From assembly GCA_947561715.1 (NCBI GenBank), contig OX387201.1, forward strand, positions 5,474,001 to 5,538,000: a stretch of 64,000 bases of DNA, read 5' to 3'. Under the pieces are notes generated by a model. It saw only the letters and a program-made list of their open reading frames with translations. It did no database searches and had not been told where the DNA came from. The stretch's first letter is position 1, and every line of letters begins with the position of its first letter. A program made the position numbers and the translations under genes. This stretch comes from Ascidia mentula (Eukaryota > Chordata > Ascidiacea > Phlebobranchia > Ascidiidae). Shown piece after piece: positions 1 through 64,000 of this stretch.

Positions 1-3000
1 AATCACCGTGTCGCCCATGGCGTGCACGAACTTGCTAAAGTCCGCGCCGCTGTCCTTGCCTCCGACGAACACGTCGCTGCCTTGAGCGTTCGCTGCCAGT
101 GCCTTTCCGAGAGCCGCGTTGTCGGCCTTGTTCGCAAGTTGCACGTCGCTGCCCGAGCTGTCATCGTCGCCAGTCACCATTTCGAAGGTTGAACCTCCAA
201 GCACGATGCCGGACTTGGCCGCTCCGTAAGCGTCGCCGCCATATTGGCCGCCGTACTCTCCTGGATAGTATGCGTGGCCCGCTGTACCGAGACCTGCCGC
301 GCCAGCACCGATCAGAGTGTCGCCGGCGGTGAAGATCGCCTTGCTGCCCTTGCCGCCCTTCTTGCCGCCGTCCACAAAGACGCCGCTGTCCTGAGCACCG
401 TACGCCGCACCGAGGCCAGCTGCCAGGTTTTCGCCGAACTGGTCAGCCTTGACAGTGCCGTCGTGGCCTTCATCTCCGTAATCCTCGATCATGAACGAGT
501 GTCCGCCAACAATGATGTCGGAAGCGGCGGCACCCATCGCCTTGCCGTGTCCGCGGAATTTGCCTGGACCTCCGTAGGGGCCATAGCCGTGACCAGCGCC
601 AGCGAGAGCACCCGCTCCAATCACCGTGTCGCCCATGGCGTGCACGAACTTGCTAAAGTCCGCGCCGCTGTCCTTGCCTCCGACGAACACGTCGCTGCCT
701 TGAGCGTTCGCTGCCAGTGCCTTTCCGAGAGCCGCGTTGTCGGCCTTGTTCGCAAGTTGCACGTCGCTGCCCGAGCTGTCATCGTCGCCAGTCACCATTT
801 CGAAAGTTGAACCTCCAAGCACGATGCCGGACTTGGCCGCTCCGTAAGCGTCGCCGCCATATTGGCCGCCGTACTCTCCTGGATAGTATGCGTGGCCCGC
901 TGTACCGAGACCTGCCGCGCCAGCACCGATCAGAGTGTCGCCGGCGGTGAAGATCGCCTTGCTGCCCTTTCCGCCCTTCTTGCCGCCGTCCACAAAGACG
1001 CCGCTGTCCTGAGCACCGTACGCCGCACCGAGGCCAGCTGCCAGGTTTTCGCCGAACTGGTCAGCCTTGACAGTGCCGTCGTGGCCTTCATCTCCGTAAT
1101 CCTCGATCATGAACGAGTGTCCGCCAACAATGATGTCGGAAGCGGCGGCACCCATCGCCTTGCCGTGTCCGCGGAATTTGCCTGGACCTCCGTAGGGGCC
1201 ATAGCCGTGACCAGCGCCAGCGAGAGCACCCGCTCCAATCACCGTGTCGCCCATGGCGTGCACGAACTTGCTAAAGTCCGCGCCGCTGTCCTTGCCTCCG
1301 ACGAACACGTCGCTGCCTTGAGCGTTCGCTGCCAGTGCCTTTCCGAGAGCCGCGTTGTCGGCCTTGTTCGCAAGTTGCACGTCGCTGCCCGAGCTGTCAT
1401 CGTCGCCAGTCACCATTTCGAAGGTTGAACCTCCAAGCACGATGCCGGACTTGGCCGCTCCGTAAGCGTCGCCGCCATATTGGCCGCCGTACTCTCCTGG
1501 ATAGTATGCGTGGCCCGCTGTACCGAGACCTGCCGCGCCAGCACCGATCAGAGTGTCGCCGGCGGTGAAGATCGCCTTGCTGCCCTTGCCGCCCTTCTTG
1601 CCGCCGTCCACAAAGACGCCGCTGTCCTGAGCACCGTACGCCGCACCGAGGCCAGCTGCCAGGTTTTCGCCGAACTGGTCAGCCTTGACAGTGCCGTCGT
1701 GGCCTTCATCTCCGTAATCCTCGATCATGAACGAGTGTCCGCCAACAATGATGTCGGAAGCGGCGGCACCCATCGCCTTGCCGTGTCCGCGGAATTTGCC
1801 TGGACCTCCGTAGGGGCCATAGCCGTGACCAGCGCCAGCGAGAGCACCCGCTCCAATCACCGTGTCGCCCATGGCGTGCACGAACTTGCTAAAGTCCGCG
1901 CCGCTGTCCTTGCCTCCGACGAACACGTCGCTGCCTTGAGCGTTCGCTGCCAGTGCCTTTCCGAGAGCCGCGTTGTCGGCCTTGTTCGCAAGTTGCACGT
2001 CGCTGCCCGAGCTGTCATCGTCGCCAGTCACCATTTCGAAGGTTGAACCTCCAAGCACGATGCCGGACTTGGCCGCTCCGTAAGCGTCGCCGCCATATTG
2101 GCCGCCGTACTCTCCTGGATAGTATGCGTGGCCCGCTGTACCGAGACCTGCCGCGCCAGCACCGATCAGAGTGTCGCCGGCGGTGAAGATCGCCTTGCTG
2201 CCCTTGCCGCCCTTCTTGCCGCCGTCCACAAAGACGCCGCTGTCCTGAGCACCGTACGCCGCACCGAGGCCAGCTGCCAGGTTTTCGCCGAACTGGTCAG
2301 CCTTGACAGTGCCGTCGTGGCCTTCATCTCCGTAATCCTCGATCATGAACGAGTGTCCGCCAACAATGATGTCGGAAGCGGCGGCACCCATCGCCTTGCC
2401 GTGTCCGCGGAATTTGCCTGGACCTCCGTAGGGGCCATAGCCGTGACCAGCGCCAGCGAGAGCACCCGCTCCAATCACCGTGTCGCCCATGGCGTGCACG
2501 AACTTGCTAAAGTCCGCGCCGCTGTCCTTGCCTCCGACGAACACGTCGCTGCCTTGAGCGTTCGCTGCCAGTGCCTTTCCGAGAGCCGCGTTGTCGGCCT
2601 TGTTCGCAAGTTGCACGTCGCTGCCCGAGCTGTCATCGTCGCCAGTCACCATTTCGAAAGTTGAACCTCCAAGCACGATGCCGGACTTGGCCGCTCCGTA
2701 AGCGTCGCCGCCATATTGGCCGCCGTACTCTCCTGGATAGTATGCGTGGCCCGCTGTACCGAGACCTGCCGCGCCAGCACCGATCAGAGTGTCGCCGGCG
2801 GTGAAGATCGCCTTGCTGCCCTTTCCGCCCTTCTTGCCGCCGTCCACAAAGACGCCGCTGTCCTGAGCACCGTACGCCGCACCGAGGCCAGCTGCCAGGT
2901 TTTCGCCGAACTGGTCAGCCTTGACAGTGCCGTCGTGGCCTTCATCTCCGTAATCCTCGATCATGAACGAGTGTCCGCCAACAATGATGTCGGAAGCGGC

Positions 3001-3700
3001 GGCACCCATCGCCTTGCCGTGTCCGCGGAATTTGCCTGGACCTCCGTAGGGGCCATAGCCGTGACCAGCGCCAGCGAGAGCACCCGCTCCAATCACCGTG
3101 TCGCCCATGGCGTGCACGAACTTGCTAAAGTCCGCGCCGCTGTCCTTGCCTCCGACGAACACGTCGCTGCCTTGAGCGTTCGCTGCCAGTGCCTTTCCGA
3201 GAGCCGCGTTGTCGGCCTTGTTGGCAAGTTGCACGTCGCTGCCCGAGCTGTCATCGTCGCCAGTCACCATTTCGAAGGTTGAACCTCCAAGCACGATGCC
3301 GGACTTGGCCGCTCCGTAAGCGTCGCCGCCATATTGGCCGCCGTACTCTCCTGGATAGTATGCGTGGCCCGCTGTACCGAGACCTGCCGCGCCAGCACCG
3401 ATCAGAGTGTCGCCGGCGGTGAAGATCGCCTTGCTGCCCTTGCCGCCCTTCTTGCCGCCGTCCACAAAGACGCCGCTGTCCTGAGCACCGTACGCCGCAC
3501 CGAGGCCAGCTGCCAGGTTTTCGCCGAACTGGTCAGCCTTGACAGTGCCGTCGTGGCCTTCATCTCCGTAATCCTCGATCATGAACGAGTGTCCGCCAAC
3601 AATGATGTCGGAAGCGGCGGCACCCATCGCCTTGCCGTGTCCGCGGAATTTGCCTGGACCTCCGTAGGGGCCATAGCCGTGACCAGCGCCAGCGAGAGCA
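1..3700 (-). repeat. Three-unit (1,854-bp) duplication at the low-coordinate edge
   Basis: A synonymous Thr ACC-to-ACT change occurs only at 805 and 2659, exactly three units apart. The Gly marker order GGC, GGA, GGC in units 244, 862 and 1480 repeats in units 2098, 2716 and 3334. A private Ala GCG-to-GCC change at 3223 appears in only one of the two blocks, so it arose after the duplication. Confidence 0.65.
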
Positions 3701-6700
3701 CCCGCTCCAATCACCGTGTCGCCCATGGCGTGCACGAACTTGCTAAAGTCCGCGCCGCTGTCCTTGCCTCCGACGAACACGTCGCTGCCTTGAGCGTTCG
3801 CTGCCAGTGCCTTTCCGAGAGCCGCGTTGTCGGCCTTGTTCGCAAGTTGCACGTCGCTGCCCGAGCTGTCATCGTCGCCAGTCACCATTTCGAAGGTTGA
3901 ACCTCCAAGCACGATGCCGGACTTGGCCGCTCCGTAAGCGTCGCCGCCATATTGGCCGCCGTACTCTCCTGGATAGTATGCGTGGCCCGCTGTACCGAGA
4001 CCTGCCGCGCCAGCACCGATCAGAGTGTCGCCGGCGGTGAAGATCGCCTTGCTGCCCTTGCCGCCCTTCTTGCCGCCGTCCACAAAGACGCCGCTGTCCT
4101 GAGCACCGTACGCCGCACCGAGGCCAGCTGCCAGGTTTTCGCCGAACTGGTCAGCCTTGACAGTGCCGTCGTGGCCTTCATCTCCGTAATCCTCGATCAT
4201 GAACGAGTGTCCGCCAACAATGATGTCGGAAGCGGCGGCACCCATCGCCTTGCCGTGTCCGCGGAATTTGCCTGGACCTCCGTAGGGGCCATAGCCGTGA
4301 CCAGCGCCAGCGAGAGCACCCGCTCCAATCACCGTGTCGCCCATGGCGTGCACGAACTTGCTAAAGTCCGCGCCGCTGTCCTTGCCTCCGACGAACACGT
4401 CGCTGCCTTGAGCGTTCGCTGCCAGTGCCTTTCCGAGAGCCGCGTTGTCGGCCTTGTTCGCAAGTTGCACGTCGCTGCCCGAGCTGTCATCGTCGCCAGT
4501 CACCATTTCGAAGGTTGAACCTCCAAGCACGATGCCGGACTTGGCCGCTCCGTAAGCGTCGCCGCCATATTGGCCGCCGTACTCTCCTGGATAGTATGCG
4601 TGGCCCGCTGTACCGAGACCTGCCGCGCCAGCACCGATCAGAGTGTCGCCGGCGGTGAAGATCGCCTTGCTGCCCTTGCCGCCCTTCTTGCCGCCGTCCA
4701 CAAAGACGCCGCTGTCCTGAGCACCGTACGCCGCACCGAGGCCAGCTGCCAGGTTTTCGCCGAACTGGTCAGCCTTGACAGTGCCGTCGTGGCCTTCATC
4801 TCCGTAATCCTCGATCATGAACGAGTGTCCGCCAACAATGATGTCGGAAGCGGCGGCACCCATCGCCTTGCCGTGTCCGCGGAATTTGCCTGGACCTCCG
4901 TAGGGGCCATAGCCGTGACCAGCGCCAGCGAGAGCACCCGCTCCAATCACCGTGTCGCCCATGGCGTGCACGAACTTGCTAAAGTCCGCGCCGCTGTCCT
5001 TGCCTCCGACGAACACGTCGCTGCCTTGAGCGTTCGCTGCCAGTGCCTTTCCGAGAGCCGCGTTGTCGGCCTTGTTCGCAAGTTGCACGTCGCTGCCCGA
5101 GCTGTCATCGTCGCCAGTCACCATTTCGAAGGTTGAACCTCCAAGCACGATGCCGGACTTGGCCGCTCCGTAAGCGTCGCCGCCATATTGGCCGCCGTAC
5201 TCTCCTGGATAGTATGCGTGGCCCGCTGTACCGAGACCTGCCGCGCCAGCACCGATCAGAGTGTCGCCGGCGGTGAAGATCGCCTTGCTGCCCTTGCCGC
5301 CCTTCTTGCCGCCGTCCACAAAGACGCCGCTGTCCTGAGCACCGTACGCCGCACCGAGGCCAGCTGCCAGGTTTTCGCCGAACTGGTCAGCCTTGACAGT
5401 GCCGTCGTGGCCTTCATCTCCGTAATCCTCGATCATGAACGAGTGTCCGCCAACAATGATGTCGGAAGCGGCGGCACCCATCGCCTTGCCGTGTCCGCGG
5501 AATTTGCCTGGACCTCCGTAGGGGCCATAGCCGTGACCAGCGCCAGCGAGAGCACCCGCTCCAATCACCGTGTCGCCCATGGCGTGCACGAACTTGCTAA
5601 AGTCCGCGCCGCTGTCCTTGCCTCCGACGAACACGTCGCTGCCTTGAGCGTTCGCTGCCAGTGCCTTTCCGAGAGCCGCGTTGTCGGCCTTGTTCGCAAG
5701 TTGCACGTCGCTGCCCGAGCTGTCATCGTCGCCAGTCACCATTTCGAAGGTTGAACCTCCAAGCACGATGCCGGACTTGGCCGCTCCGTAAGCGTCGCCG
5801 CCATATTGGCCGCCGTACTCTCCTGGATAGTATGCGTGGCCCGCTGTACCGAGACCTGCCGCGCCAGCACCGATCAGAGTGTCGCCGGCGGTGAAGATCG
5901 CCTTGCTGCCCTTGCCGCCCTTCTTGCCGCCGTCCACAAAGACGCCGCTGTCCTGAGCACCGTACGCCGCACCGAGGCCAGCTGCCAGGTTTTCGCCGAA
6001 CTGGTCAGCCTTGACAGTGCCGTCGTGGCCTTCATCTCCGTAATCCTCGATCATGAACGAGTGTCCGCCAACAATGATGTCGGAAGCGGCGGCACCCATC
6101 GCCTTGCCGTGTCCGCGGAATTTGCCTGGACCTCCGTAGGGGCCATAGCCGTGACCAGCGCCAGCGAGAGCACCCGCTCCAATCACCGTGTCGCCCATGG
6201 CGTGCACGAACTTGCTAAAGTCCGCGCCGCTGTCCTTGCCTCCGACGAACACGTCGCTGCCTTGAGCGTTCGCTGCCAGTGCCTTTCCGAGAGCCGCGTT
6301 GTCGGCCTTGTTCGCAAGTTGCACGTCGCTGCCCGAGCTGTCATCGTCGCCAGTCACCATTTCGAAGGTTGAACCTCCAAGCACGATGCCGGACTTGGCC
6401 GCTCCGTAAGCGTCGCCGCCATATTGGCCGCCGTACTCTCCTGGATAGTATCCGTGGCCCGCTGTACCGAGACCTGCCGCGCCAGCACCGATCAGAGTGT
6501 CGCCGGCGGTGAAGATCGCCTTGCTGCCCTTTCCGCCCTTCTTGCCGCCGTCCACAAAGACGCCGCTGTCCTGAGCACCGTACGCCGCACCGAGGCCAGC
6601 TGCCAGGTTTTCGCCGAACTGGTCAGCCTTGACAGTGCCGTCGTGGCCTTCATCTCCGTAATCCTCGATCATGAACGAGTGTCCGCCAACAATGATGTCG

Positions 6701-9700
6701 GAAGCGGCGGCACCCATCGCCTTGCCGTGTCCGCGGAATTTGCCTGGACCTCCGTAGGGGCCATAGCCGTGACCAGCGCCAGCGAGAGCACCCGCTCCAA
6801 TCACCGTGTCGCCCATGGCGTGCACGAACTTGCTAAAGTCCGCGCCGCTGTCCTTGCCTCCGACGAACACGTCGCTGCCTTGAGCGTTCGCTGCCAGTGC
6901 CTTTCCGAGAGCCGCGTTGTCGGCCTTGTTCGCAAGTTGCACGTCGCTGCCCGAGCTGTCATCGTCGCCAGTCACCATTTCGAAGGTTGAACCTCCAAGC
7001 ACGATGCCGGACTTGGCCGCTCCGTAAGCGTCGCCGCCATATTGGCCGCCGTACTCTCCTGGATAGTATGCGTGGCCCGCTGTACCGAGACCTGCCGCGC
7101 CAGCACCGATCAGAGTGTCGCCGGCGGTGAAGATCGCCTTGCTGCCCTTGCCGCCCTTCTTGCCGCCGTCCACAAAGACGCCGCTGTCCTGAGCACCGTA
7201 CGCCGCACCGAGGCCAGCTGCCAGGTTTTCGCCGAACTGGTCAGCCTTGACAGTGCCGTCGTGGCCTTCATCTCCGTAATGCTCGATCATGAACGAGTGT
7301 CCGCCAACAATGATGTCGGAAGCGGCGGCACCCATCGCCTTGCCGTGTCCGCGGAATTTGCCTGGACCTCCGTAGGGGCCATAGCCGTGACCAGCGCCAG
7401 CGAGAGCACCCGCTCCAATCACCGTGTCGCCCATGGCGTGCACGAACTTGCTAAAGTCCGCGCCGCTGTCCTTGCCTCCGACGAACACGTCGCTGCCTTG
7501 AGCGTTCGCTGCCAGTGCCTTTCCGAGAGCCGCGTTGTCGGCCTTGTTCGCAAGTTGCACGTCGCTGCCCGAGCTGTCATCGTCGCCAGTCACCATTTCG
7601 AAGGTTGAACCTCCAAGCACGATGCCGGACTTGGCCGCTCCGTAAGCGTCGCCGCCATATTGGCCGCCGTACTCTCCTGGATAGTATGCGTGGCCCGCTG
7701 TACCGAGACCTGCCGCGCCAGCACCGATCAGAGTGTCGCCGGCGGTGAAGATCGCCTTGCTGCCCTTTCCGCCCTTCTTGCCGCCGTCCACAAAGACGCC
7801 GCTGTCCTGAGCACCGTACGCCGCACCGAGGCCAGCTGCCAGGTTTTCGCCGAACTGGTCAGCCTTGACAGTGCCGTCGTGGCCTTCATCTCCGTAATCC
7901 TCGATCATGAACGAGTGTCCGCCAACAATGATGTCGGAAGCGGCGGCACCCATCGCCTTGCCGTGTCCGCGGAATTTGCCTGGACCTCCGTAGGGGCCAT
8001 AGCCGTGACCAGCGCCAGCGAGAGCACCCGCTCCAATCACCGTGTCGCCCATGGCGTGCACGAACTTGCTAAAGTCCGCGCCGCTGTCCTTGCCTCCGAC
8101 GAACACGTCGCTGCCTTGAGCGTTCGCTGCCAGTGCCTTTCCGAGAGCCGCGTTGTCGGCCTTGTTCGCAAGTTGCACGTCGCTGCCCGAGCTGTCATCG
8201 TCGCCAGTCACCATTTCGAAGGTTGAACCTCCAAGCACGATGCCGGACTTGGCCGCTCCGTAAGCGTCGCCGCCATATTGGCCGCCGTACTCTCCTGGAT
8301 AGTATGCGTGGCCCGCTGTACCGAGACCTGCCGCGCCAGCACCGATCAGAGTGTCGCCGGCGGTGAAGATCGCCTTGCTGCCCTTGCCGCCCTTCTTGCC
8401 GCCGTCCACAAAGACGCCGCTGTCCTGAGCACCGTACGCCGCACCGAGGCCAGCTGCCAGGTTTTCGCCGAACTGGTCAGCCTTGACAGTGCCGTCGTGG
8501 CCTTCATCTCCGTAATCCTCGATCATGAACGAGTGTCCGCCAACAATGATGTCGGAAGCGGCGGCACCCATCGCCTTGCCGTGTCCGCGGAATTTGCCTG
8601 GACCTCCGTAGGGGCCATAGCCGTGACCAGCGCCAGCGAGAGCACCCGCTCCAATCACCGTGTCGCCCATGGCGTGCACGAACTTGCTAAAGTCCGCGCC
8701 GCTGTCCTTGCCTCCGACGAACACGTCGCTGCCTTGAGCGTTCGCTGCCAGTGCCTTTCCGAGAGCCGCGTTGTCGGCCTTGTTCGCAAGTTGCACGTCG
8801 CTGCCCGAGCTGTCATCGTCGCCAGTCACCATTTCGAAGGTTGAACCTCCAAGCACGATGCCGGACTTGGCCGCTCCGTAAGCGTCGCCGCCATATTGGC
8901 CGCCGTACTCTCCTGGATAGTATCCGTGGCCCGCTGTACCGAGACCTGCCGCGCCAGCACCGATCAGAGTGTCGCCGGCGGTGAAGATCGCCTTGCTGCC
9001 CTTTCCGCCCTTCTTGCCGCCGTCCACAAAGACGCCGCTGTCCTGAGCACCGTACGCCGCACCGAGGCCAGCTGCCAGGTTTTCGCCGAACTGGTCAGCC
9101 TTGACAGTGCCGTCGTGGCCTTCATCTCCGTAATCCTCGATCATGAACGAGTGTCCGCCAACAATGATGTCGGAAGCGGCGGCACCCATCGCCTTGCCGT
9201 GTCCGCGGAATTTGCCTGGACCTCCGTAGGGGCCATAGCCGTGACCAGCGCCAGCGAGAGCACCCGCTCCAATCACCGTGTCGCCCATGGCGTGCACGAA
9301 CTTGCTAAAGTCCGCGCCGCTGTCCTTGCCTCCGACGAACACGTCGCTGCCTTGAGCGTTCGCTGCCAGTGCCTTTCCGAGAGCCGCGTTGTCGGCCTTG
9401 TTCGCAAGTTGCACGTCGCTGCCCGAGCTGTCATCGTCGCCAGTCACCATTTCGAAGGTTGAACCTCCAAGCACGATGCCGGACTTGGCCGCTCCGTAAG
9501 CGTCGCCGCCATATTGGCCGCCGTACTCTCCTGGATAGTATGCGTGGCCCGCTGTACCGAGACCTGCCGCGCCAGCACCGATCAGAGTGTCGCCGGCGGT
9601 GAAGATCGCCTTGCTGCCCTTTCCGCCCTTCTTGCCGCCGTCCACAAAGACGCCGCTGTCCTGAGCACCGTACGCCGCACCGAGGCCAGCTGCCAGGTTT

Positions 9701-12700
9701 TCGCCGAACTGGTCAGCCTTGACAGTGCCGTCGTGGCCTTCATCTCCGTAATCCTCGATCATGAACGAGTGTCCGCCAACAATGATGTCGGAAGCGGCGG
9801 CACCCATCGCCTTGCCGTGTCCGCGGAATTTGCCTGGACCTCCGTAGGGGCCATAGCCGTGACCAGCGCCAGCGAGAGCACCCGCTCCAATCACCGTGTC
9901 GCCCATGGCGTGCACGAACTTGCTAAAGTCCGCGCCGCTGTCCTTGCCTCCGACGAACACGTCGCTGCCTTGAGCGTTCGCTGCCAGTGCCTTTCCGAGA
10001 GCCGCGTTGTCGGCCTTGTTCGCAAGTTGCACGTCGCTGCCCGAGCTGTCATCGTCGCCAGTCACCATTTCGAAGGTTGAACCTCCAAGCACGATGCCGG
10101 ACTTGGCCGCTCCGTAAGCGTCGCCGCCATATTGGCCGCCGTACTCTCCTGGATAGTATGCGTGGCCCGCTGTACCGAGACCTGCCGCGCCAGCACCGAT
10201 CAGAGTGTCGCCGGCGGTGAAGATCGCCTTGCTGCCCTTGCCGCCCTTCTTGCCGCCGTCCACAAAGACGCCGCTGTCCTGAGCACCGTACGCCGCACCG
10301 AGGCCAGCTGCCAGGTTTTCGCCGAACTGGTCAGCCTTGACAGTGCCGTCGTGGCCTTCATCTCCGTAATCCTCGATCATGAACGAGTGTCCGCCAACAA
10401 TGATGTCGGAAGCGGCGGCACCCATCGCCTTGCCGTGTCCGCGGAATTTGCCTGGACCTCCGTAGGGGCCATAGCCGTGACCAGCGCCAGCGAGAGCACC
10501 CGCTCCAATCACCGTGTCGCCCATGGCGTGCACGAACTTGCTAAAGTCCGCGCCGCTGTCCTTGCCTCCGACGAACACGTCGCTGCCTTGAGCGTTCGCT
10601 GCCAGTGCCTTTCCGAGAGCCGCGTTGTCGGCCTTGTTCGCAAGTTGCACGTCGCTGCCCGAGCTGTCATCGTCGCCAGTCACCATTTCGAAGGTTGAAC
10701 CTCCAAGCACGATGCCGGACTTGGCCGCTCCGTAAGCGTCGCCGCCATATTGGCCGCCGTACTCTCCTGGATAGTATGCGTGGCCCGCTGTACCGAGACC
10801 TGCCGCGCCAGCACCGATCAGAGTGTCGCCGGCGGTGAAGATCGCCTTGCTGCCCTTTCCGCCCTTCTTGCCGCCGTCCACAAAGACGCCGCTGTCCTGA
10901 GCACCGTACGCCGCACCGAGGCCAGCTGCCAGGTTTTCGCCGAACTGGTCAGCCTTGACAGTGCCGTCGTGGCCTTCATCTCCGTAATCCTCGATCATGA
11001 ACGAGTGTCCGCCAACAATGATGTCGGAAGCGGCGGCACCCATCGCCTTGCCGTGTCCGCGGAATTTGCCTGGACCTCCGTAGGGGCCATAGCCGTGACC
11101 AGCGCCAGCGAGAGCACCCGCTCCAATCACCGTGTCGCCCATGGCGTGCACGAACTTGCTAAAGTCCGCGCCGCTGTCCTTGCCTCCGACGAACACGTCG
11201 CTGCCTTGAGCGTTCGCTGCCAGTGCCTTTCCGAGAGCCGCGTTGTCGGCCTTGTTCGCAAGTTGCACGTCGCTGCCCGAGCTGTCATCGTCGCCAGTCA
11301 CCATTTCGAAGGTTGAACCTCCAAGCACGATGCCGGACTTGGCCGCTCCGTAAGCGTCGCCGCCATATTGGCCGCCGTACTCTCCTGGATAGTATGCGTG
11401 GCCCGCTGTACCGAGACCTGCCGCGCCAGCACCGATCAGAGTGTCGCCGGCGGTGAAGATCGCCTTGCTGCCCTTTCCGCCCTTCTTGCCGCCGTCCACA
11501 AAGACGCCGCTGTCCTGAGCACCGTACGCCGCACCGAGGCCAGCTGCCAGGTTTTCGCCGAACTGGTCAGCCTTGACAGTGCCGTCGTGGCCTTCATCTC
11601 CGTAATCCTCGATCATGAACGAGTGTCCGCCAACAATGATGTCGGAAGCGGCGGCACCCATCGCCTTGCCGTGTCCGCGGAATTTGCCTGGACCTCCGTA
11701 GGGGTCATAGCCGTGACCAGCGCCAGCGAGAGCACCCGCTCCAATCACCGTGTCGCCCATGGCGTGCACGAACTTGCTAAAGTCCGCGCCGCTGTCCTTG
11801 CCTCCGACGAACACGTCGCTGCCTTGAGCGTTCGCTGCCAGTGCCTTTCCGAGAGCCGCGTTGTCGGCCTTGTTCGCAAGTTGCACGTCGCTGCCCGAGT
11901 TGTCATCGTCGCCAGTCACCATTTCGAAGGTTGAACCTCCAAGCACGATGCCGGACTTGGCCGCTCCGTAAGCGTCGCCGCCATATTGGCCGCCGTACTC
12001 TCCTGGATAGTATGCGTGGCCCGCTGTACCGAGACCTGCCGCGCCAGCACCGATCAGAGTGTCGCCGGCGGTGAAGATCGCCTTGCTGCCCTTGCCGCCC
12101 TTCTTGCCGCCGTCCACAAAGACGCCGCTGTCCTGAGCACCGTACGCCGCACCGAGGCCAGCTGCCAGGTTTTCGCCGAACTGGTCAGCCTTGACAGTGC
12201 CGTCGTGGCCTTCATCTCCGTAATCCTCGATCATGAACGAGTGTCCGCCAACAATGATGTCGGAAGCGGCGGCACCCATCGCCTTGCCGTGTCCGCGGAA
12301 TTTGCCTGGACCTCCGTAGGGGCCATAGCCGTGACCAGCGCCAGCGAGAGCACCCGCTCCAATCACCGTGTCGCCCATGGCGTGCACGAACTTGCTAAAG
12401 TCCGCGCCGCTGTCCTTGCCTCCGACGAACACGTCGCTGCCTTGAGCGTTCGCTGCCAGTGCCTTTCCGAGAGCCGCGTTGTCGGCCTTGTTCGCAAGTT
12501 GCACGTCGCTGCCCGAGCTGTCATCGTCGCCAGTCACCATTTCGAAGGTTGAACCTCCAAGCACGATGCCGGACTTGGCCGCTCCGTAAGCGTCGCCGCC
12601 ATATTGGCCGCCGTACTCTCCTGGATAGTATGCGTGGCCCGCTGTACCGAGACCTGCCGCGCCAGCACCGATCAGAGTGTCGCCGGCGGTGAAGATCGCC

Positions 12701-51700: not shown

Positions 51701-54700
51701 GCACCGAGGCCAGCTGCCAGGTTTTCGCCGAACTGGTCAGCCTTGACAGTGCCGTCGTGGCCTTCATCTCCGTAATCCTCGATCATGAACGAGTGTCCGC
51801 CAACAATGATGTCGGAAGCGGCGGCACCCATCGCCTTGCCGTGTCCGCGGAATTTGCCTGGACCTCCGTAGGGGCCATAGCCGTGACCAGCGCCAGCGAG
51901 AGCACCCGCTCCAATCACCGTGTCGCCCATGGCGTGCACGAACTTGCTAAAGTCCGCGCCGCTGTCCTTGCCTCCGACGAACACGTCGCTGCCTTGAGCG
52001 TTCGCTGCCAGTGCCTTTCCGAGAGCCGCGTTGTCGGCCTTGTTCGCAAGTTGCACGTCGCTGCCCGAGCTGTCATCGTCGCCAGTCACCATTTCGAAGG
52101 TTGAACCTCCAAGCACGATGCCGGACTTGGCCGCTCCGTAAGCGTCGCCGCCATATTGGCCGCCGTACTCTCCTGGATAGTATGCGTGGCCCGCTGTACC
52201 GAGACCTGCCGCGCCAGCACCGATCAGAGTGTCGCCGGCGGTGAAGATCGCCTTGCTGCCCTTTCCGCCCTTCTTGCCGCCGTCCACAAAGACGCCGCTG
52301 TCCTGAGCACCGTACGCCGCACCGAGGCCAGCTGCCAGGTTTTCGCCGAACTGGTCAGCCTTGACAGTGCCGTCGTGGCCTTCATCTCCGTAATCCTCGA
52401 TCATGAACGAGTGTCCGCCAACAATGATGTCGGAAGCGGCGGCACCCATCGCCTTGCCGTGTCCGCGGAATTTGCCTGGACCTCCGTAGGGGCCATAGCC
52501 GTGACCAGCGCCAGCGAGAGCACCCGCTCCAATCACCGTGTCGCCCATGGCGTGCACGAACTTGCTAAAGTCCGCGCCGCTGTCCTTGCCTCCGACGAAC
52601 ACGTCGCTGCCTTGAGCGTTCGCTGCCAGTGCCTTTCCGAGAGCCGCGTTGTCGGCCTTGTTCGCAAGTTGCACGTCGCTGCCCGAGCTGTCATCTTCGC
52701 CAGTCACCATTTCGAAGGTTGAACCTCCAAGCACGATGCCGGACTTGGCCGCTCCGTAAGCGTCGCCGCCATATTGGCCGCCGTACTCTCCTGGATAGTA
52801 TGCGTGGCCCGCTGTACCGAGACCTGCCGCGCCAGCACCGATCAGAGTGTCGCCGGCGGTGAAGATCGCCTTGCTGCCCTTGCCGCCCTTCTTCCCGCCG
52901 TCCACAAAGACGCCGCTGTCCTGAGCACCGTACGCCGCACCGAGGCCAGCTGCCAGGTTTTCGCCGAACTGGTCAGCCTTGACAGTGCCGTCGTGGCCTT
53001 CATCTCCGTAATCCTCGATCATGAACGAGTGTCCGCCAACAATGATGTCGGAAGCGGCGGCACCCATCGCCTTGCCGTGTCCGCGGAATTTGCCTGGACC
53101 TCCGTAGGGGCCATAGCCGTGACCAGCGCCAGCGAGAGCACCCGCTCCAATCACCGTGTCGCCCATGGCGTGCACGAACTTGCTAAAGTCCGCGCCGCTG
53201 TCCTTGCCTCCGACGAACACGTCGCTGCCTTGAGCGTTCGCTGCCAGTGCCTTTCCGAGAGCCGCGTTGTCGGCCTTGTTCGCAAGTTGCACGTCGCTGC
53301 CCGAGCTGTCATCGTCGCCAGTCACCATTTCGAAGGTTGAACCTCCAAGCACGATGCCGGACTTGGCCGCTCCGTAAGCGTCGCCGCCATATTGGCCGCC
53401 GTACTCTCCTGGATAGTATGCGTGGCCCGCTGTACCGAGACCTGCCGCGCCAGCACCGATCAGAGTGTCGCCGGCGGTGAAGATCGCCTTGCTGCCCTTG
53501 CCGCCCTTCTTGCCGCCGTCCACAAAGACGCCGCTGTCCTGAGCACCGTACGCCGCACCGAGGCCAGCTGCCAGGTTTTCGCCGAACTGGTCAGCCTTGA
53601 CAGTGCCGTCGTGGCCTTCATCTCCGTAATCCTCGATCATGAACGAGTGTCCGCCAACAATGATGTCGGAAGCGGCGGCACCCATCGCCTTGCCGTGTCC
53701 GCGGAATTTGCCTGGACCTCCGTAGGGGCCATAGCCGTGACCAGCGCCAGCGAGAGCACCCGCTCCAATCACCGTGTCGCCCATGGCGTGCACGAACTTG
53801 CTAAAGTCCGCGCCGCTGTCCTTGCCTCCGACGAACACGTCGCTGCCTTGAGCGTTCGCTGCCAGTGCCTTTCCGAGAGCCGCGTTGTCGGCCTTGTTCG
53901 CAAGTTGCACGTCGCTGCCCGAGCTGTCATCGTCGCCAGTCACCATTTCGAAGGTTGAACCTCCAAGCACGATGCCGGACTTGGCCGCTCCGTAAGCGTC
54001 GCCGCCATATTGGCCGCCGTACTCTCCTGGATAGTATGCGTGGCCCGCTGTACCGAGACCTGCCGCGCCAGCACCGATCAGAGTGTCGCCGGCGGTGAAG
54101 ATCGCCTTGCTGCCCTTTCCGCCCTTCTTGCCGCCGTCCACAAAGACGCCGCTGTCCTGAGCACCGTACGCCGCACCGAGGCCAGCTGCCAGGTTTTCGC
54201 CGAACTGGTCAGCCTTGACAGTGCCGTCGTGGCCTTCATCTCCGTAATCCTCGATCATGAACGAGTGTCCGCCAACAATGATGTCGGAAGCGGCGGCACC
54301 CATCGCCTTGCCGTGTCCGCGGAATTTGCCTGGACCTCCGTAGGGGCCATAGCCGTGACCAGCGCCAGCGAGAGCACCCGCTCCAATCACCGTGTCGCCC
54401 ATGGCGTGCACGAACTTGCTAAAGTCCGCGCCGCTGTCCTTGCCTCCGACGAACACGTCGCTGCCTTGAGCGTTCGCTGCCAGTGCCTTTCCGAGAGCCG
54501 CGTTGTCGGCCTTGTTCGCAAGTTGCACGTCGCTGCCCGAGCTGTCATCGTCGCCAGTCACCATTTCGAAGGTTGAACCTCCAAGCACGATGCCGGACTT
54601 GGCCGCTCCGTAAGCGTCGCCGCCATATTGGCCGCCGTACTCTCCTGGATAGTATGCGTGGCCCGCTGTACCGAGACCTGCCGCGCCAGCACCGATCAGA

Positions 54701-57700
54701 GTGTCGCCGGCGGTGAAGATCGCCTTGCTGCCCTTGCCGCCCTTCTTGCCGCCGTCCACAAAGACGCCGCTGTCCTGAGCACCGTACGCCGCACCGAGGC
54801 CAGCTGCCAGGTTTTCGCCGAACTGGTCAGCCTTGACAGTGCCGTCGTGGCCTTCATCTCCGTAATCCTCGATCATGAACGAGTGTCCGCCAACAATGAT
54901 GTCGGAAGCGGCGGCACCCATCGCCTTGCCGTGTCCGCGGAATTTGCCTGGACCTCCGTAGGGGCCATAGCCGTGACCAGCGCCAGCGAGAGCACCCGCT
55001 CCAATCACCGTGTCGCCCATGGCGTGCACGAACTTGCTAAAGTCCGCGCCGCTGTCCTTGCCTCCGACGAACACGTCGCTGCCTTGAGCGTTCGCTGCCA
55101 GTGCCTTTCCGAGAGCCGCGTTGTCGGCCTTGTTCGCAAGTTGCACGTCGCTGCCCGAGCTGTCATCGTCGCCAGTCACCATTTCGAAGGTTGAACCTCC
55201 AAGCACGATGCCGGACTTGGCCGCTCCGTAAGCGTCGCCGCCATATTGGCCGCCGTACTCTCCTGGATAGTATCCGTGGCCCGCTGTACCGAGACCTGCC
55301 GCGCCAGCACCGATCAGAGTGTCGCCGGCGGTGAAGATCGCCTTGCTGCCCTTGCCGCCCTTCTTGCCGCCGTCCACAAAGACGCCGCTGTCCTGAGCAC
55401 CGTACGCCGCACCGAGGCCAGCTGCCAGGTTTTCGCCGAACTGGTCAGCCTTGACAGTGCCGTCGTGGCCTTCATCTCCGTAATCCTTGATCATGAACGA
55501 GTGTCCGCCAACAATGATGTCGGAAGCGGCGGCACCCATCGCCTTGCCGTGTCCGCGGAATTTGCCTGGACCTCCGTAGGGGCCATAGCCGTGACCAGCG
55601 CCAGCGAGAGCACCCGCTCCAATCACCGTGTCGCCCATGGCGTGCACGAACTTGCTAAAGTCCGCGCCGCTGTCCTTGCCTCCGACGAACACGTCGCTGC
55701 CTTGAGCGTTCGCTGCCAGTGCCTTTCCGAGAGCCGCGTTGTCGGCCTTGTTCGCAAGTTGCACGTCGCTGCCCGAGCTGTCATCGTCGCCAGTCACCAT
55801 TTCGAAGGTTGAACCTCCAAGCACGATGCCGGACTTGGCCGCTCCGTAAGCGTCGCCGCCATATTGGCCGCCGTACTCTCCTGGATAGTATGCGTGGCCC
55901 GCTGTACCGAGACCTGCCGCGCCAGCACCGATCAGAGTGTCGCCGGCGGTGAAGATCGCCTTGCTGCCCTTTCCGCCCTTCTTGCCGCCGTCCACAAAGA
56001 CGCCGCTGTCCTGAGCACCGTACGCCGCACCGAGGCCAGCTGCCAGGTTTTCGCCGAACTGGTCAGCCTTGACAGTGCCGTCGTGGCCTTCATCTCCGTA
56101 ATCCTCGATCATGAACGAGTGTCCGCCAACAATGATGTCGGAAGCGGCGGCACCCATCGCCTTGCCGTGTCCGCGGAATTTGCCTGGACCTCCGTAGGGG
56201 CCATAGCCGTGACCAGCGCCAGCGAGAGCACCCGCTCCAATCACCGTGTCGCCCATGGCGTGCACGAACTTGCTAAAGTCCGCGCCGCTGTCCTTGCCTC
56301 CGACGAACACGTCGCTGCCTTGAGCGTTCGCTGCCAGTGCCTTTCCGAGAGCCGCGTTGTCGGCCTTGTTCGCAAGTTGCACGTCGCTGCCCGAGCTGTC
56401 ATCGTCGCCAGTCACCATTTCGAAGGTTGAACCTCCAAGCACGATGCCGGACTTGGCCGCTCCGTAAGCGTCGCCGCCATATTGGCCGCCGTACTCTCCT
56501 GGATAGTATGCGTGGCCCGCTGTACCGAGACCTGCCGCGCCAGCACCGATCAGAGTGTCGCCGGCGGTGAAGATCGCCTTGCTGCCCTTTCCGCCCTTCT
56601 TGCCGCCGTCCACAAAGACGCCGCTGTCCTGAGCACCGTACGCCGCACCGAGGCCAGCTGCCAGGTTTTCGCCGAACTGGTCAGCCTTGACAGTGCCGTC
56701 GTGGCCTTCATCTCCGTAATCCTCGATCATGAACGAGTGTCCGCCAACAATGATGTCGGAAGCGGCGGCACCCATCGCCTTGCCGTGTCCGCGGAATTTG
56801 CCTGGACCTCCGTAGGGGCCATAGCCGTGACCAGCGCCAGCGAGAGCACCCGCTCCAATCACCGTGTCGCCCATGGCGTGCACGAACTTGCTAAAGTCCG
56901 CGCCGCTGTCCTTGCCTCCGACGAACACGTCGCTGCCTTGAGCGTTCGCTGCCAGTGCCTTTCCGAGAGCCGCGTTGTCGGCCTTGTTCGCAAGTTGCAC
57001 GTCGCTGCCCGAGCTGTCATCGTCGCCAGTCACCATTTCGAAGGTTGAACCTCCAAGCACGATGCCGGACTTGGCCGCTCCGTAAGCGTCGCCGCCATAT
57101 TGGCCGCCGTACTCTCCTGGATAGTATGCGTGGCCCGCTGTACCGAGACCTGCCGCGCCAGCACCGATCAGAGTGTCGCCGGCGGTGAAGATCGCCTTGC
57201 TGCCCTTTCCGCCCTTCTTGCCGCCGTCCACAAAGACGCCGCTGTCCTGAGCACCGTACGCCGCACCGAGGCCAGCTGCCAGGTTTTCGCCGAACTGGTC
57301 AGCCTTGACAGTGCCGTCGTGGCCTTCATCTCCGTAATCCTCGATCATGAACGAGTGTCCGCCAACAATGATGTCGGAAGCGGCGGCACCCATCGCCTTG
57401 CCGTGTCCGCGGAATTTGCCTGGACCTCCGTAGGGGCCATAGCCGTGACCAGCGCCAGCGAGAGCACCCGCTCCAATCACCGTGTCGCCCATGGCGTGCA
57501 CGAACTTGCTAAAGTCCGCGCCGCTGTCCTTGCCTCCGACGAACACGTCGCTGCCTTGAGCGTTCGCTGCCAGTGCCTTTCCGAGAGCCGCGTTGTCGGC
57601 CTTGTTCGCAAGTTGCACGTCGCTGCCCGAGCTGTCATCGTCGCCAGTCACCATTTCGAAGGTTGAACCTCCAAGCACGATGCCGGACTTGGCCGCTCCG

Positions 57701-60700
57701 TAAGCGTCGCCGCCATATTGGCCGCCGTACTCTCCTGGATAGTATCCGTGGCCCGCTGTACCGAGACCTGCCGCGCCAGCACCGATCAGAGTGTCGCCGG
57801 CGGTGAAGATCGCCTTGCTGCCCTTTCCGCCCTTCTTGCCGCCGTCCACAAAGACGCCGCTGTCCTGAGCACCGTACGCCGCACCGAGGCCAGCTGCCAG
57901 GTTTTCGCCGAACTGGTCAGCCTTGACAGTGCCGTCGTGGCCTTCATCTCCGTAATCCTCGATCACGAACGCTTGACCTCTTAGTTGAATTCCCGACTCT
58001 GCTTGTGCCTGCGCTTTGTTGTTTTTCTGATGCCATTGAATACACTTCCCCACTGTGCAGCATGTGTCTTCTTCTACAACTACTCTTTGTGACCCGTCGT
58101 TGCAGGGCACCATGTCTACTTCTGGACACTTGGATGGATTACAGGCACATTCGTATGTACTGCAACAACTGTCAATTGGATAACTGACTAAGTCCTCAAA
58201 ATAATTGCATATCAACGGTGCTTCTGTGCACTTCGCTATGTCGCAATCAGCTGGTACACATCTGTATACATAGCAGCAATCGTTGGATTTTTCTTCCACC
58301 ACGACATACCCTTCAGGCGCAAGGGGATATGGGTCGCAGGTGATTGCGTCACATTCGATTTCATGCGTGTTTTTGCAACGGCATAAGTTGCAAGCGTCCC
58401 CGTATTTATTCCACGTCTCACCATAACATCTGGTATGTCCTTGTTCGTCGACGCACATCGGCTCTTCCGCCAAAATTTCAAAATTATTTTCACTTACTCC
58501 GGATCCAGTAGCGCCTGCTTGATTATAATTGTCCATCCCAATCCCAACGGAGCTATCGTCTTTGTCCAAACTACTTATGAATGCCACGTTACCGTTAGGT
58601 GTCACTGCGGTGGCCTGTGATTTTGTTGTTGCTTTTCCGTACACGTCACCTGGTAAATTAGAATAGCCGCCAGTTTCTTTGGATTGAACGTGACCCAAAC
58701 TGTCCGCCAGAATTTCCAAACCTTTCGTAGAAAAAGATATTAGGCTTGTGGTGTCCAACGCATTATCTTTTGTAATATGCAGATCGCTGTCCTGCACAGA
58801 TTGAGCTGCCCCTAAACCATGTGCGTCATTCGCAAGTTTGGATCCCACAGTTACACTTTTTTCTCCAGAAGGTACGTCCGCACCCATGACAGCTCCAACA
58901 AACGCGGGACCAAGACTCGCTAGATTTGAAGCGGTTGCACCAACAGCATTGCTACTTTGGCGAACGCACTTCCCTACTGGACAACAAGTGTGTGGATCGA
59001 TCACTTCACGAACGCACCCGTCAGGACATGGGACAACAGCCAATGTAGCACAACTTGTCGTATCACATACACACTCGTAAGTGGCGCAACATTTGTCAAG
59101 AGGGTACGTCTTCAACTTTTCGTGTACCCCACACGACATCGCAGTAAACTGGCATTTGCTGACTTCACATTCGACGCGAACCGTGCGGTATGTCGTGCAA
59201 CAGGCGTCGCCATACTCGTCAACAATCATGTAACCTTCTGGAGCGGTCGGCCTTGCTTCACACACCTTTGCTTGTGCAACGATATCACCAACGTCAACAC
59301 ACGTGTAAACAGTGCACAGGTCCTTAGGTTCAGTCCACTGCTCCCCGTAACACCTTCCTATCCCGTGAGTGTCGACGCAAAGATCAGCTTCAGCAACAAC
59401 TTCCGTGTGGCTTTTTCCAAAACCTGCAGCTTGTCCGGCCGCAGTAGACTTGTCTGTTGCTGAAAGTGTTACATCAGAAACACTTTCAGTGGGTTTTGAT
59501 TTGAAACTGTCAAATGTCGTTCCTCCAACGACCAGTCCGCTTTTACCCATACCTTCCGCGGCGGCTTGGCCAAAGTGTCCAATGAGATGACCTAGACCTT
59601 TACCGGCACCGGCGCTATGAGCAAGGCTGGTGCTTCCAAGAACAGTATCTCCCGCAACGAAGGAAGTCACAGTGGTGGAACCACCACGTGGCTTTTTAGC
59701 AACCACAACATCGGACGCTTGTTCTGACTGTGACGCACCGACTCCGGTTGCTATGGCGTCAGTATCCATGGCTGCATCCACCATTCCACTTTTTTCAGGA
59801 ACGCCGTAATCATAATGCCCGAAGGTGGACTTGGCAATGGTGGCAATGCTTTCGGCGTTAGCTGAGGAAGCTGCATCAACAAATACACATTTACCCACCG
59901 AGCAACACACGTCTTGCTCAAGAATCACTCGCGTGGAGCCTTCTGGGCAAGGCGGATTACCAAGATCCAAGCACTTGCTTTGGTCACACACGCACTCGTA
60001 TGTCGAGCAACAACCGTCTAGATCGTATTGCACCATCTTTTCAAATCTTGCGCAAGACATTGGCTGGAATTGACACGTAAACAGATCACATTCTTCATCG
60101 ATATATCTATATGAATAGCAGCAAGCGCTAGTTTTCTCTTCCACAATCAGCTTGCCGTCCATTTGAGCAGGGTATGGGTCGCATTCCTCCACTTTGCACC
60201 TCACATCGCCCGAATCGTAACACACGCAAACCTCGCAAGGACTTTCATTCCAACAATCGCCAAACTTTCTTTCAAGGCCGCTGTTGTCGATACACAATGC
60301 CGGTTCCTCGGCGATCCTAAGACCCAAACCAGTGGATCCGCTACTTGCACCTGCTCCTGCAGCATTAGATTTGGAATCACTGATCAGATCTACTGACAAA
60401 CTGTCATCGCCCTTTCCGTGTTTCTCATGTGAAATCAAACTAGAACCTAAAACGATTCCACTATCGGCAGCTGCCATAGCTTTGCCCATTCCCGAAACAC
60501 CAGAAAACAAGCCACCATGGTCAAAAGCGGATTCAGAAAGGGCATCAGCTGCAGCACCGATAACAGTGTCCCCGGCAGTAAAATACGTCTTACTGCTTTT
60601 TTTGTCTTTCTTGTCATGACCAACATATACTCCGCTATCTTGGGCACCATAGGAAGTACCCAGGCCAGCTGCAAGATTTTCGCCGAACTGGTCAGCAATG

Positions 60701-62526
60701 ACATGACCATCATGGTCTTTATTTCCATAGTCCTCCATTGCAAAGCTAGATTTGCCAATCAAAATTCCAGAATCAGCAGCACCCATCGCTTTGCCGTGTC
60801 CTAAGAATTGACCCGGAGCTCCGTAGTGGCCATAGCCGTGACCAGCGCCCGCCAGAGCATCCGCTCCGATCACCGTATTGCCCACTGTGAACATGGACTT
60901 GCTAAAGTCCTCACCACTGTCCTTGCCTCCGACGAACACGTCGCTGTCTTGAGCGTTCGCTGCAAGTGCTTTTCCGAGAGCCGCGTTGTCGGCCTTGTTT
61001 GCAAGTTGCACGTCGCTTCCGGAATCTTTTTGTTTATCATTTTTCATGTGGAAGCTTGAACCACCGAGCACGATGTCGGACTTGGCCGCTCCAAAAGCTT
61101 CACCGCCATAATGACCGTCGTAGTGCCCGTCAAAGAACGAGTGATCCTCAGTACCGAGAGCTCCAAGGACAGAACTAAGAACATTATCGCCGAATGCAAA
61201 TGATATTTCCTTCGACTTTTTGTCTTTTTTACCATCCTGCACATTTATTCCAGAGTCTTGGAAGGAAGTAGCTAAGCCAGCCCCAATTGCTAGAGCCTCG
61301 TCTGCAGTTGATACAGCAACATCGGTTGGCTTGGACTTCGGTTTTTCAAAGGTTTCGAAAAGCATTGACGCGCCTGGTAGTATGGCTGCGGACTCAGCTT
61401 CCGCCACTGCAGACGTTGAAACATCGACGCATTTACCAATGTGGCAACAGCTTTCCGGTTCGACGACCACGCGAATGGACCCAATAGGGCAGGCGGGATC
61501 ACCCAGATCGGGGCAACTTGACGGGTCGCAGACGCACTCATACGTTGAGCAACAGTCGTCGACGGGGAAAATAGAGAGAATCTCAGAGTAGCTGCATTTG
61601 GGCGCTTGAAATTCACAAGTGGATACGTCGCATGTCTCCTTAACGATGCGATACGATACACAACAGTCGTCCGCCTTTTCTTCGACAACATAATGTCCTT
61701 CGGGGCAGACGGGATAAGGATCGCATTGTTTCATTACGCACTTGATCTCAGCATTATCAGAGCACGTGCAAGTCTCACATGGATTTGAGCTGTACACCCA
61801 CGAGTCAGCGAACTTGCGCTCAAATCCCGACTCGTCGACACAGATTGAAGATTCGGTGATGACCGCACTCGCCAGTTTGCCGGCAGTAGCCGACGCGGCA
61901 TCCGCGACCGCTTGTTGCTGGCTTAAAAGATCTGCGACCACCGCCTCATGTCCGCCTCCCTCTTCGTCTTTAGAGACCATGAGCGATGCAGCATCCTGGA
62001 AAATGCTTGCCGATCCGTCGGCCGAAATAGCGGTGGCCCCGTGCACATTCACGGCATCGACCTCTTGATCGGTGTAGCCCGCCTTACCAGTAAATTTGCC
62101 CTGCGCCGCCAAGTAACTGCCGGTGTCGGTAAATGCAAGGTGCTTTGTCATGGCGCCGTTGTCTTCAATCACGTCCGCGGCGATGGCGGACTTGCCGTTA
62201 TTTTTAGCCTCTCCAGACGCTGCGGCACCCAGACTCTGGCCAGTCTTCGGCTTGACACCATTGTCATCCCCGCTGTAACCGGTAGTCGATGTGATAAAGC
62301 TAGATCCCCCAAGAAGTACATCTGAGCCTGCTGTTCCAATTCCACTGGCAACTGCTTTGCCAACTCCTGGGAGTACATCTCCGCCGGATTTGGTTCCCGC
62401 TCCGGCGCTTGCTTCGGCACCGATACCGATCGATGGCGTGCAACCCACCAAAAGTTCGTCTGTGAGGACGTTGTTCCAGCAGTAGTACCTGATGCAAGCT
62501 GACTGGTCGTTCTTCACCTGACCTGG
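1..62526 (-). CDS. Exon e: single giant open exon, at least 62.5 kb
   Basis: From the acceptor GCAG|CCAGG at 62527/62526 the frame (codon first bases at multiples of 3) stays open to base 1, which is 20,842 codons. The first 30 residues finish a VWC-like motif (QSACIRYYCWNN, then GC). The rest alternates Cys-rich blocks with Gly-rich modules and then becomes the 206-aa array. The last codon in the window (ATT, bases 3-1) is inside a repeat, so the exon continues further. Silk and aggregate-glue genes of arthropods are known to combine small 5' exons with one huge repetitive exon, and this has the same shape. The alternative, that the array hides introns, is not supported: the unit has no stop, no length change and no break in frame. 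Confidence 0.88.
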
Positions 62527-63818: not shown

Positions 63819-64000
63819 CTTAGCAAAGCATAAACAGTGCAGATGTTTTTATTTCACTATACACACACTCCGCAATATTCTTTATATGGCTTTGGTGTGG
63901 TTCATTGCTTCCCTGTTTTTTTTTTATAATCGGTCAATGTGTTTGGTCGGGTGACGTATGTAACAGTTATCTTTTTCATAGCTCGTAGCGCCATTGGGGG
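63819..64000 (-). other. Probable intron upstream of exon a; nothing coding identified
   Basis: This 182-bp stretch is AT-rich with a poly-T run near 63917-63927 on the plus strand. A pyrimidine-containing tract (TTTATGCTTTGCTAAG on the minus strand) leads into the exon a acceptor. The last 20 bases are less AT-rich and might touch another exon, but too little is present to call it. Confidence 0.4.

Follow-up and report, generated by a model that had tools for sequence, protein, structure and literature searches.

How long can a single coding exon become in an animal, and what kind of protein would it encode? The question is raised by a stretch of 64,000 nucleotides (nt) from the ascidian Ascidia mentula (the window; GenBank assembly GCA_947561715.1, contig OX387201.1, here C69, chromosome 5 by length, positions 5,474,001 to 5,538,000), in which a sequence-only reading had recognised one uninterrupted minus-strand coding exon of at least 62.5 kb. 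Translation of the window and of the adjoining genome supports a single giant coding exon of 93,485 nt, comprising 31,161 complete codons and two bases, which is best explained as the central exon of a putative secreted protein of the gel-forming-mucin/von Willebrand factor (VWF) type, orthologous to the uncharacterized protein LOC445660 (4887 amino acids, aa) of Ciona intestinalis.

Six-frame translation gave one minus-strand frame that stays open from 62571 to 1 (20,857 codons), and no stop was found in the part of the exon that lies in the window. As the sequence-only reading had claimed, the frame set by the acceptor (TTGCAG/CCAGG; first exon base at 62526) is open for 20,842 codons down to base 1, one codon phase is kept before, within and between the repeats, and the window edge cuts the exon in the middle of a repeat unit. 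The real exon was expected to be longer, and the recommended translation of the neighbouring genome, for which 100 kb were fetched (genomic coordinates on C69), bore this out: the frame stays open until a stop at 5443007, so that an open frame of 31188 aa spans the exon, while a donor (TCAG/GTTAGT) follows base 5443042, just before the stop. The exon 3' of the donor carries on the Cys-rich domain, with phases that fit by eye. The product of the giant exon alone amounts to 3.02 MDa and is composed of 23.6% Gly, 16.2% Ala, 8.7% Asp and 11.1% Ser, Thr and Pro together.

Most of the exon, about 88.8 kb, is a tandem array of some 144 units of 618 bp, counted onward from the first anchor; 143 anchors are exact, one unit has a change in its anchor, and the last unit runs out of the array. 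The unit joins a module A of 104 aa to a module B of 102 aa, which are 44% identical to each other, and is Gly/Ala/Asp-rich and acidic, containing neither Cys nor an N-glycosylation sequon. Its copies differ from their consensus by a mean of 0.13% (99.87% identity, first and last units omitted), have no indels between them and fall into 24 types, the last, run-out copy counted. The GC content at third codon positions is 0.69 in the array vs 0.46 in the pre-array part, as would be expected from GC-biased gene conversion or from codon selection, which these values do not separate. Tandem Repeats Finder, whose longest period is 500, returned no rows on the array. The + strand of the array, read in the frame from base 1, is also free of stops over runs of 205 codons, each unit having about one stop, as a consequence of the composition of the unit.

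The gene around this exon is predicted to have the layout of a gel-forming mucin or VWF, with silk-like repeats in place of the mucin region rich in Pro, Thr and Ser (PTS). Upstream on the same strand, VWD, C8 and TIL domains follow one another in order above their Pfam cut-offs (genomic 5546254 to about 5538400), with three C8 and three TIL stretches in all. The C8 nearest the array has the D3 C8 of MUC2 as its best single match (71.7 bits, vs 37.1 for D2 and 21.5 for D1) and shows a GDCEC-type cysteine pattern, as in D3-type domains. Ciona LOC445660 aligns exon by exon to its C-terminus (tblastn; minus-strand matches considered, with residues from at least 3000 for the 3' region and up to 400 for the 5' region), with 44–80% identity on the main path and 35% at the junction of array and linker. 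The downstream exon chain found in this way carries VWC-like repeats (24.0 bits, below the Pfam cut-off of 27.6), a fourth VWD (52–73% identity; just over the cut-off in one frame with 24.1 vs 22.9 bits, and 29.3 bits in a genome-wide VWD scan) and the C-terminus (68.7%), a piece of which matches the cystine knot of VWF in the PDB (E 1.5e-12). The N-terminal D1-D2-D'D3 assemblies (VWD-C8-TIL) and the C-terminal D4, VWC and cystine knot of gel-forming mucins are thus represented, and the D1-D2-D'D3 exons would be joined to the giant exon. A central PTS-rich region for O-glycosylation is absent, Ser, Thr and Pro making up 11.1% of the exon, and the gene was accordingly rejected as a mucin by the PTS criterion. 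Neither VWA domains nor Pfam matches to spidroin or fibroin terminal domains were reported in the pre-array part of the exon, two array units and 10 kb on each side (the scanned parts); a spidroin or fibroin was rejected on this absence and on the flanks, which are VWD/C8/TIL on one side and VWD and cystine knot on the other.

Between the acceptor and the array, four Cys-rich linkers (L1 to L4) alternate with spacers made of modules of about 103 aa related to those of the array (Table 1). No match of the pre-array part or of two units reached its Pfam cut-off, the Pacifastin_I match in L4 (12.7 of 27.9 bits) included, and nothing significant was found for L4 among solved structures. Homologues of the pre-array part were found in nine proteins (P0001 to P0009, among the best 7,995 candidates scored) and in Ciona LOC445660 (P0010; 1,747 candidates scored), while relatives of about 5,500–17,500 aa were not seen among 473 candidates scored. 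The linker pattern occurs at least four times in each of the ten. In the three relatives whose linkers were compared (P0001, P0003 and P0010), the same-numbered linker provides the three best matches of each of L1 to L4. Both exon ends also recur: six of the ten contain the PGQV with which the exon opens at the acceptor (P0001, P0002, P0003, P0006, P0007 and P0010), whereas P0004 and P0005 begin a few residues past it and the beginnings of P0008 and P0009 lie deeper in the exon; of the nine single-exon-like homologues, six end inside the linker at the donor-equivalent place (P0001, P0002, P0004, P0005, P0007 and P0009), P0006 passes it by a few residues, and P0003 and P0008 run on. By the order of L1 to L4 and the modules of about 103 aa within one exon, the A. 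mentula protein belongs to the tunicate LOC445660-type proteins with a VWF/mucin scaffold.

What sets A. mentula apart from these relatives is the number of modules. They occur in nine of the ten homologues (none in P0008, one each in P0007 and P0009), ranging from 0 to 20 per protein vs about 295 here, and those after linker 4 number 2, 4, 2, 2, 4, 1, 0, 0 and 0 in P0001 to P0009, and 7 in Ciona, with 5 more after linker 6, vs about 288 (two per unit) in A. mentula. Modules may be under-counted in relatives with short-read or misassembled sequences; stretches of P0010 at roughly residues 2190 and 2915 seem, by eye, to be out of frame within the repeats, which suggests that the Ciona arrays may be misassembled. 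Ciona LOC445660 shares the exon order, L1 to L4, the modules, the VWC-type repeats, the fourth VWD and the cystine-knot C-terminus, but its 20 modules stand in several short groups, its model has no D1-D3, and it possesses linkers L5 and L6, which have no counterpart in the A. mentula exon, where the order is L4, array and a last half linker (best matching Ciona L7, over 38 residues only). The missing L5 and L6 are probably a lineage loss and are not taken as defining, membership being carried by the conserved order and both ends. The nearest relative of the unit is spacer 2 of the giant exon (58% and 73% aa identity), from whose module pair the array was therefore probably copied; unequal exchange or gene conversion would probably have enlarged this two-module segment and would at the same time have held its copies close to identity.

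As to function, we consider it fairly probable that the protein is a structural strand that is secreted and polymerised through disulfides and that most likely belongs to the mucous feeding net of the endostyle, tissue and function both being inferred. In the MUC2/VWF family, D3 and cystine-knot ends form disulfide-linked multimers (PMC6109156, in the part consulted), and the corresponding ends here would likewise join chains head-to-head and tail-to-tail. The joined chains would make very long, acidic, Gly/Ala-rich strands, probably little glycosylated, which, still more conditionally, might be secreted by the endostyle and form the fibres of the net. Tunicate mucus nets are secreted from the endostyle (PMC6109156), in Ciona two CiVWFL genes are specific to this organ (PMC8462739), mucin 5AC is detected in the endostyle of Styela (PMC9953650), and Botrylloides Muc5a/VWF transcripts occur in clusters 3 and 10, of which cluster 3 is assigned to the endostyle (PMC12212465); the endostyle origin of the nets together with such genes is the ground on which a feeding-net strand is proposed.

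That the same gene and exon serve another secreted structure, such as a gut barrier membrane, the tunic or cuticle, an egg coat or a defensive slime, is judged rather unlikely. It draws support from Ci-GFM1, a Ciona protein on the same scaffold which ranks third by abundance in the gut envelope membrane (PMC6109156), but, unlike Ci-GFM1, the A. mentula gene had no chitin-binding domain reported in the scanned parts, and the mucin/VWF-like genes named as endostyle-expressed in the papers cited above (PMC9953650, PMC8462739 and PMC12212465, each in part), though not tied to this gene, favour the feeding net.

For the strand of the feeding net, the full chain is estimated at about 34,000 residues and more than 3 MDa, by adding to the exon product about 1,200 residues for D1-D3 and about 1,500 for the downstream part (Ciona residues 3351–4887). 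Fully stretched at 0.34 nm per residue, the exon product would measure about 10.6 micrometres. The boldest formulation is that in a chordate a gel-forming mucin has become a silk as large as titin, in which a 93.5-kb exon and a chain of about 34,000 residues, polymerised via D3 and cystine-knot disulfides, spin a sub-micrometre feeding net; it is put forward tentatively, with doubt somewhat outweighing belief. The meshes in the mucus nets of ascidians go down to 0.2 by 0.5 micrometres (PMC8790370), and if this formulation is true, a single chain, about 10 micrometres long when stretched, would reach across many of them.

A second alternative accepts the gene and regards the length of the array as a product of the assembly, with far fewer true copies or with strong differences between haplotypes or individuals. 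The near-identity of the copies, their few types and the 0–20 modules of the relatives speak for it, and the length was read from the assembly of one haplotype. No run of ten units (6.2 kb) occurs twice, though, and exact self-repeats reach at most 6,014 nt, so that HiFi reads of ordinary length, which exceed 10 kb, could order the array. The copies also lack indels between them. The kaAscMent1.1 assembly of A. mentula is based on 74-fold HiFi coverage with a quality value of 64.9 and comprises 197.0 Mb in 95 scaffolds, with nine chromosomes and a mitochondrion of 19.46 kb (PMC11109543), slightly more than the 195.8 Mb in 79 contigs analysed here. An assembly product is on these grounds regarded as improbable.

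Openness of the frame is only mild evidence that a perfect array is coding, as 85 of 2000 dinucleotide shuffles of the 618-bp unit, repeated head to tail, left one or more of the six frames open, and the case for coding is carried by the homologues and by the ratio of non-synonymous to synonymous substitution rates (dN/dS; Jukes-Cantor). This ratio is 0.46 for module A vs the first module of spacer 2 (2a) and 0.28 for module B vs the second (2b); of 28 module pairs in all, 16 were saturated at silent sites, and the 12 that yielded a finite dS had ratios between about 0.28 and 0.71, in many cases with dS high. That a non-coding satellite has entered the gene, and is either removed by splicing or turns it into a pseudogene, is hardly credible and was rejected, for despite the chance openness of perfect arrays the modules also occur in the predicted proteins of nine of the ten homologues and elsewhere in the giant exon, the two nearest module pairs have dN/dS of 0.28–0.46, the frame and a Cys-rich linker resume exactly past the array, and the unit has no match elsewhere in the genome (139 matches to two units, all inside the giant exon; 84 of 84 candidates scored).

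Several points weigh against the proposed coding, silk-like mucin strand. Variant types within the array, counted without the last, run-out unit, are 7 synonymous and 13 non-synonymous (n = 20; 24% synonymous expected), which gives no clear sign of purifying selection there. The AlphaFold model of spacer 2 and L2 is all-strand with a mean predicted local distance difference test score of 41.1, too poor for a fold search, and the low score of the spacer modules leaves a silk-like structure without support from the model. The module counts come from a hidden Markov model (HMM) trained on the same proteins in which it counts. By total E-value the C8 match places Fc fragment of IgG binding protein first (several weaker C8 stretches) and MUC2 next, and the joining of D1-D3 to the giant exon rests on order, strand and spacing, because the Ciona model begins after the D domains. 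Finally, no paper naming LOC445660 was found in the literature consulted, and it could not be linked to either CiVWFL gene, KY.Chr1.1785 or KY.Chr10.1161.

Among known systems, Ci-GFM1 (2880 aa) has the same D1, D2, D'D3, central insert, D4, VWC and cystine knot but differs in its own small PTS insert and chitin-binding domain, and a silk-like array is not described for it in the part of PMC6109156 available. Human MUC2, MUC5AC, MUC5B and VWF share the VWD-C8-TIL assemblies, the D3-type C8 and the cystine-knot end, whereas their centre consists of PTS regions (mucins) or VWA domains (VWF), as far as PMC6109156 was accessible, in place of Gly/Ala/Asp-rich, Ser/Thr/Pro-poor repeats. The spider aggregate spidroin AgSp1 is likewise a secreted material protein with a giant repeat array, but no spidroin domain was reported in the scanned parts of the A. 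mentula gene. The AgSp1 coding sequence, called in 2019 the largest silk gene described, has 42,270 bp in two exons (PMC6553539, seen in part), less than half of the single A. mentula exon. The likening to silk, glue and mucin genes in the sequence-only reading was therefore apt, the array being silk-like and the scaffold that of a mucin/VWF. No description of the gene or of a longer coding exon was recognised in the literature searched, most subscription journals lying outside it; among animals, this may be the longest coding exon recognised so far.

If correct, these findings would reveal, in an animal closely related to vertebrates, an exon and a protein of extreme size, reached by expansion of one spacer of a mucin scaffold, and would show a route by which a gel-forming mucin frame gains a silk-like, PTS-poor core. 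They would also single out a definite candidate for the protein that makes up the fibres of the feeding net in ascidians, for which the literature consulted, in the parts available, names no such gene, and would give Ciona LOC445660 a testable role. The homogenised array lends itself well to testing concerted evolution within a coding exon.

Table 1. Features of the giant exon and its surroundings (window coordinates unless marked C69 or genomic).
Feature	Position	Strand	Basis
Possible small exon of the third D assembly; Cys-rich open stretch, limits approximate	63696..63848	-	Open reading frame lists
Cys-rich exon before the giant exon, TIL-like by eye; 79.8% identical to N-terminal part of Ciona LOC445660	62799..63050	-	tblastn
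Splice acceptor region ending TTGCAG, before the exon	62527..62556	-	Sequence; junction point shared with Ciona P0010 (LG/PGQVRND)
Giant exon, in-window part, 20,842 codons	1..62526, on to C69:5443042	-	Six-frame translation, splice sites, genome extension
Spacer 1, one diverged module of about 103 aa (40 bits) and one very weak (9 bits)	61876..62451	-	Module HMM
Linker L1, Cys-rich, 21 Cys/144 aa; three best matches are L1 of the three relatives compared	61423..61854	-	Linker comparison
Spacer 2, three modules, the first two closest to the array unit (58%, 73% aa identity)	60328..61257	-	Module HMM
Linker L2, Cys-rich, 21 Cys/142 aa	59881..60306	-	Linker comparison
Spacer 3, one module	59407..59718	-	Module HMM
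Linker L3, Cys-rich, 20 Cys/144 aa	58960..59391	-	Linker comparison
Spacer 4, one diverged module (36 bits)	58483..58791	-	Module HMM
Linker L4, Cys-rich, 22 Cys/143 aa	58036..58464	-	Linker comparison
Array, in-window part, about 94 copies of the 618-bp/206-aa unit; array ends about genomic 5443165	1..57999	-	Repeat analysis, module HMM

Elsewhere in the genome, L4 has six matches, five in the giant exon and one on contig C67 near 12.66 Mb. At C67:12650158-12658005 (+), several VWD matches precede a domain that resembles the linkers (41% identity with L4), in short frames of the ordinary kind, and the locus is likely a shorter paralogue without a giant frame at the matches. VWD domains gave at least 117 matches at E up to 0.001 (150 of 215 candidates scored), clustered on C1, C2, C52, C67, C69, C72 and C73, and thus form a large gene family in A. 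mentula. Downstream of the gene, C69:5378796-5402570 contains several short Cys-rich open reading frames on the + strand, which we take to resemble WSC domains, and a second short repetitive stretch near the gene (C69:5394893-5395981) has a Gly/Cys/Trp-rich minus-strand frame.

Two further observations concern other contigs. Contig C79 (19,461 bp) has a match to mitochondrial-type rRNA together with mitochondrial genes, with no tRNA found by ARAGORN in the first 10 kb of the mitochondrion; its AGR codons, presumably read as Gly in the ascidian code, stand at COX1 Gly positions which we take to be conserved. The first 3 kb of six of six unplaced contigs (C66 to C61; 13 contig starts searched) are tandem arrays in which spliceosomal U1 and U2 RNA genes alternate, repeating about every 915 bp.

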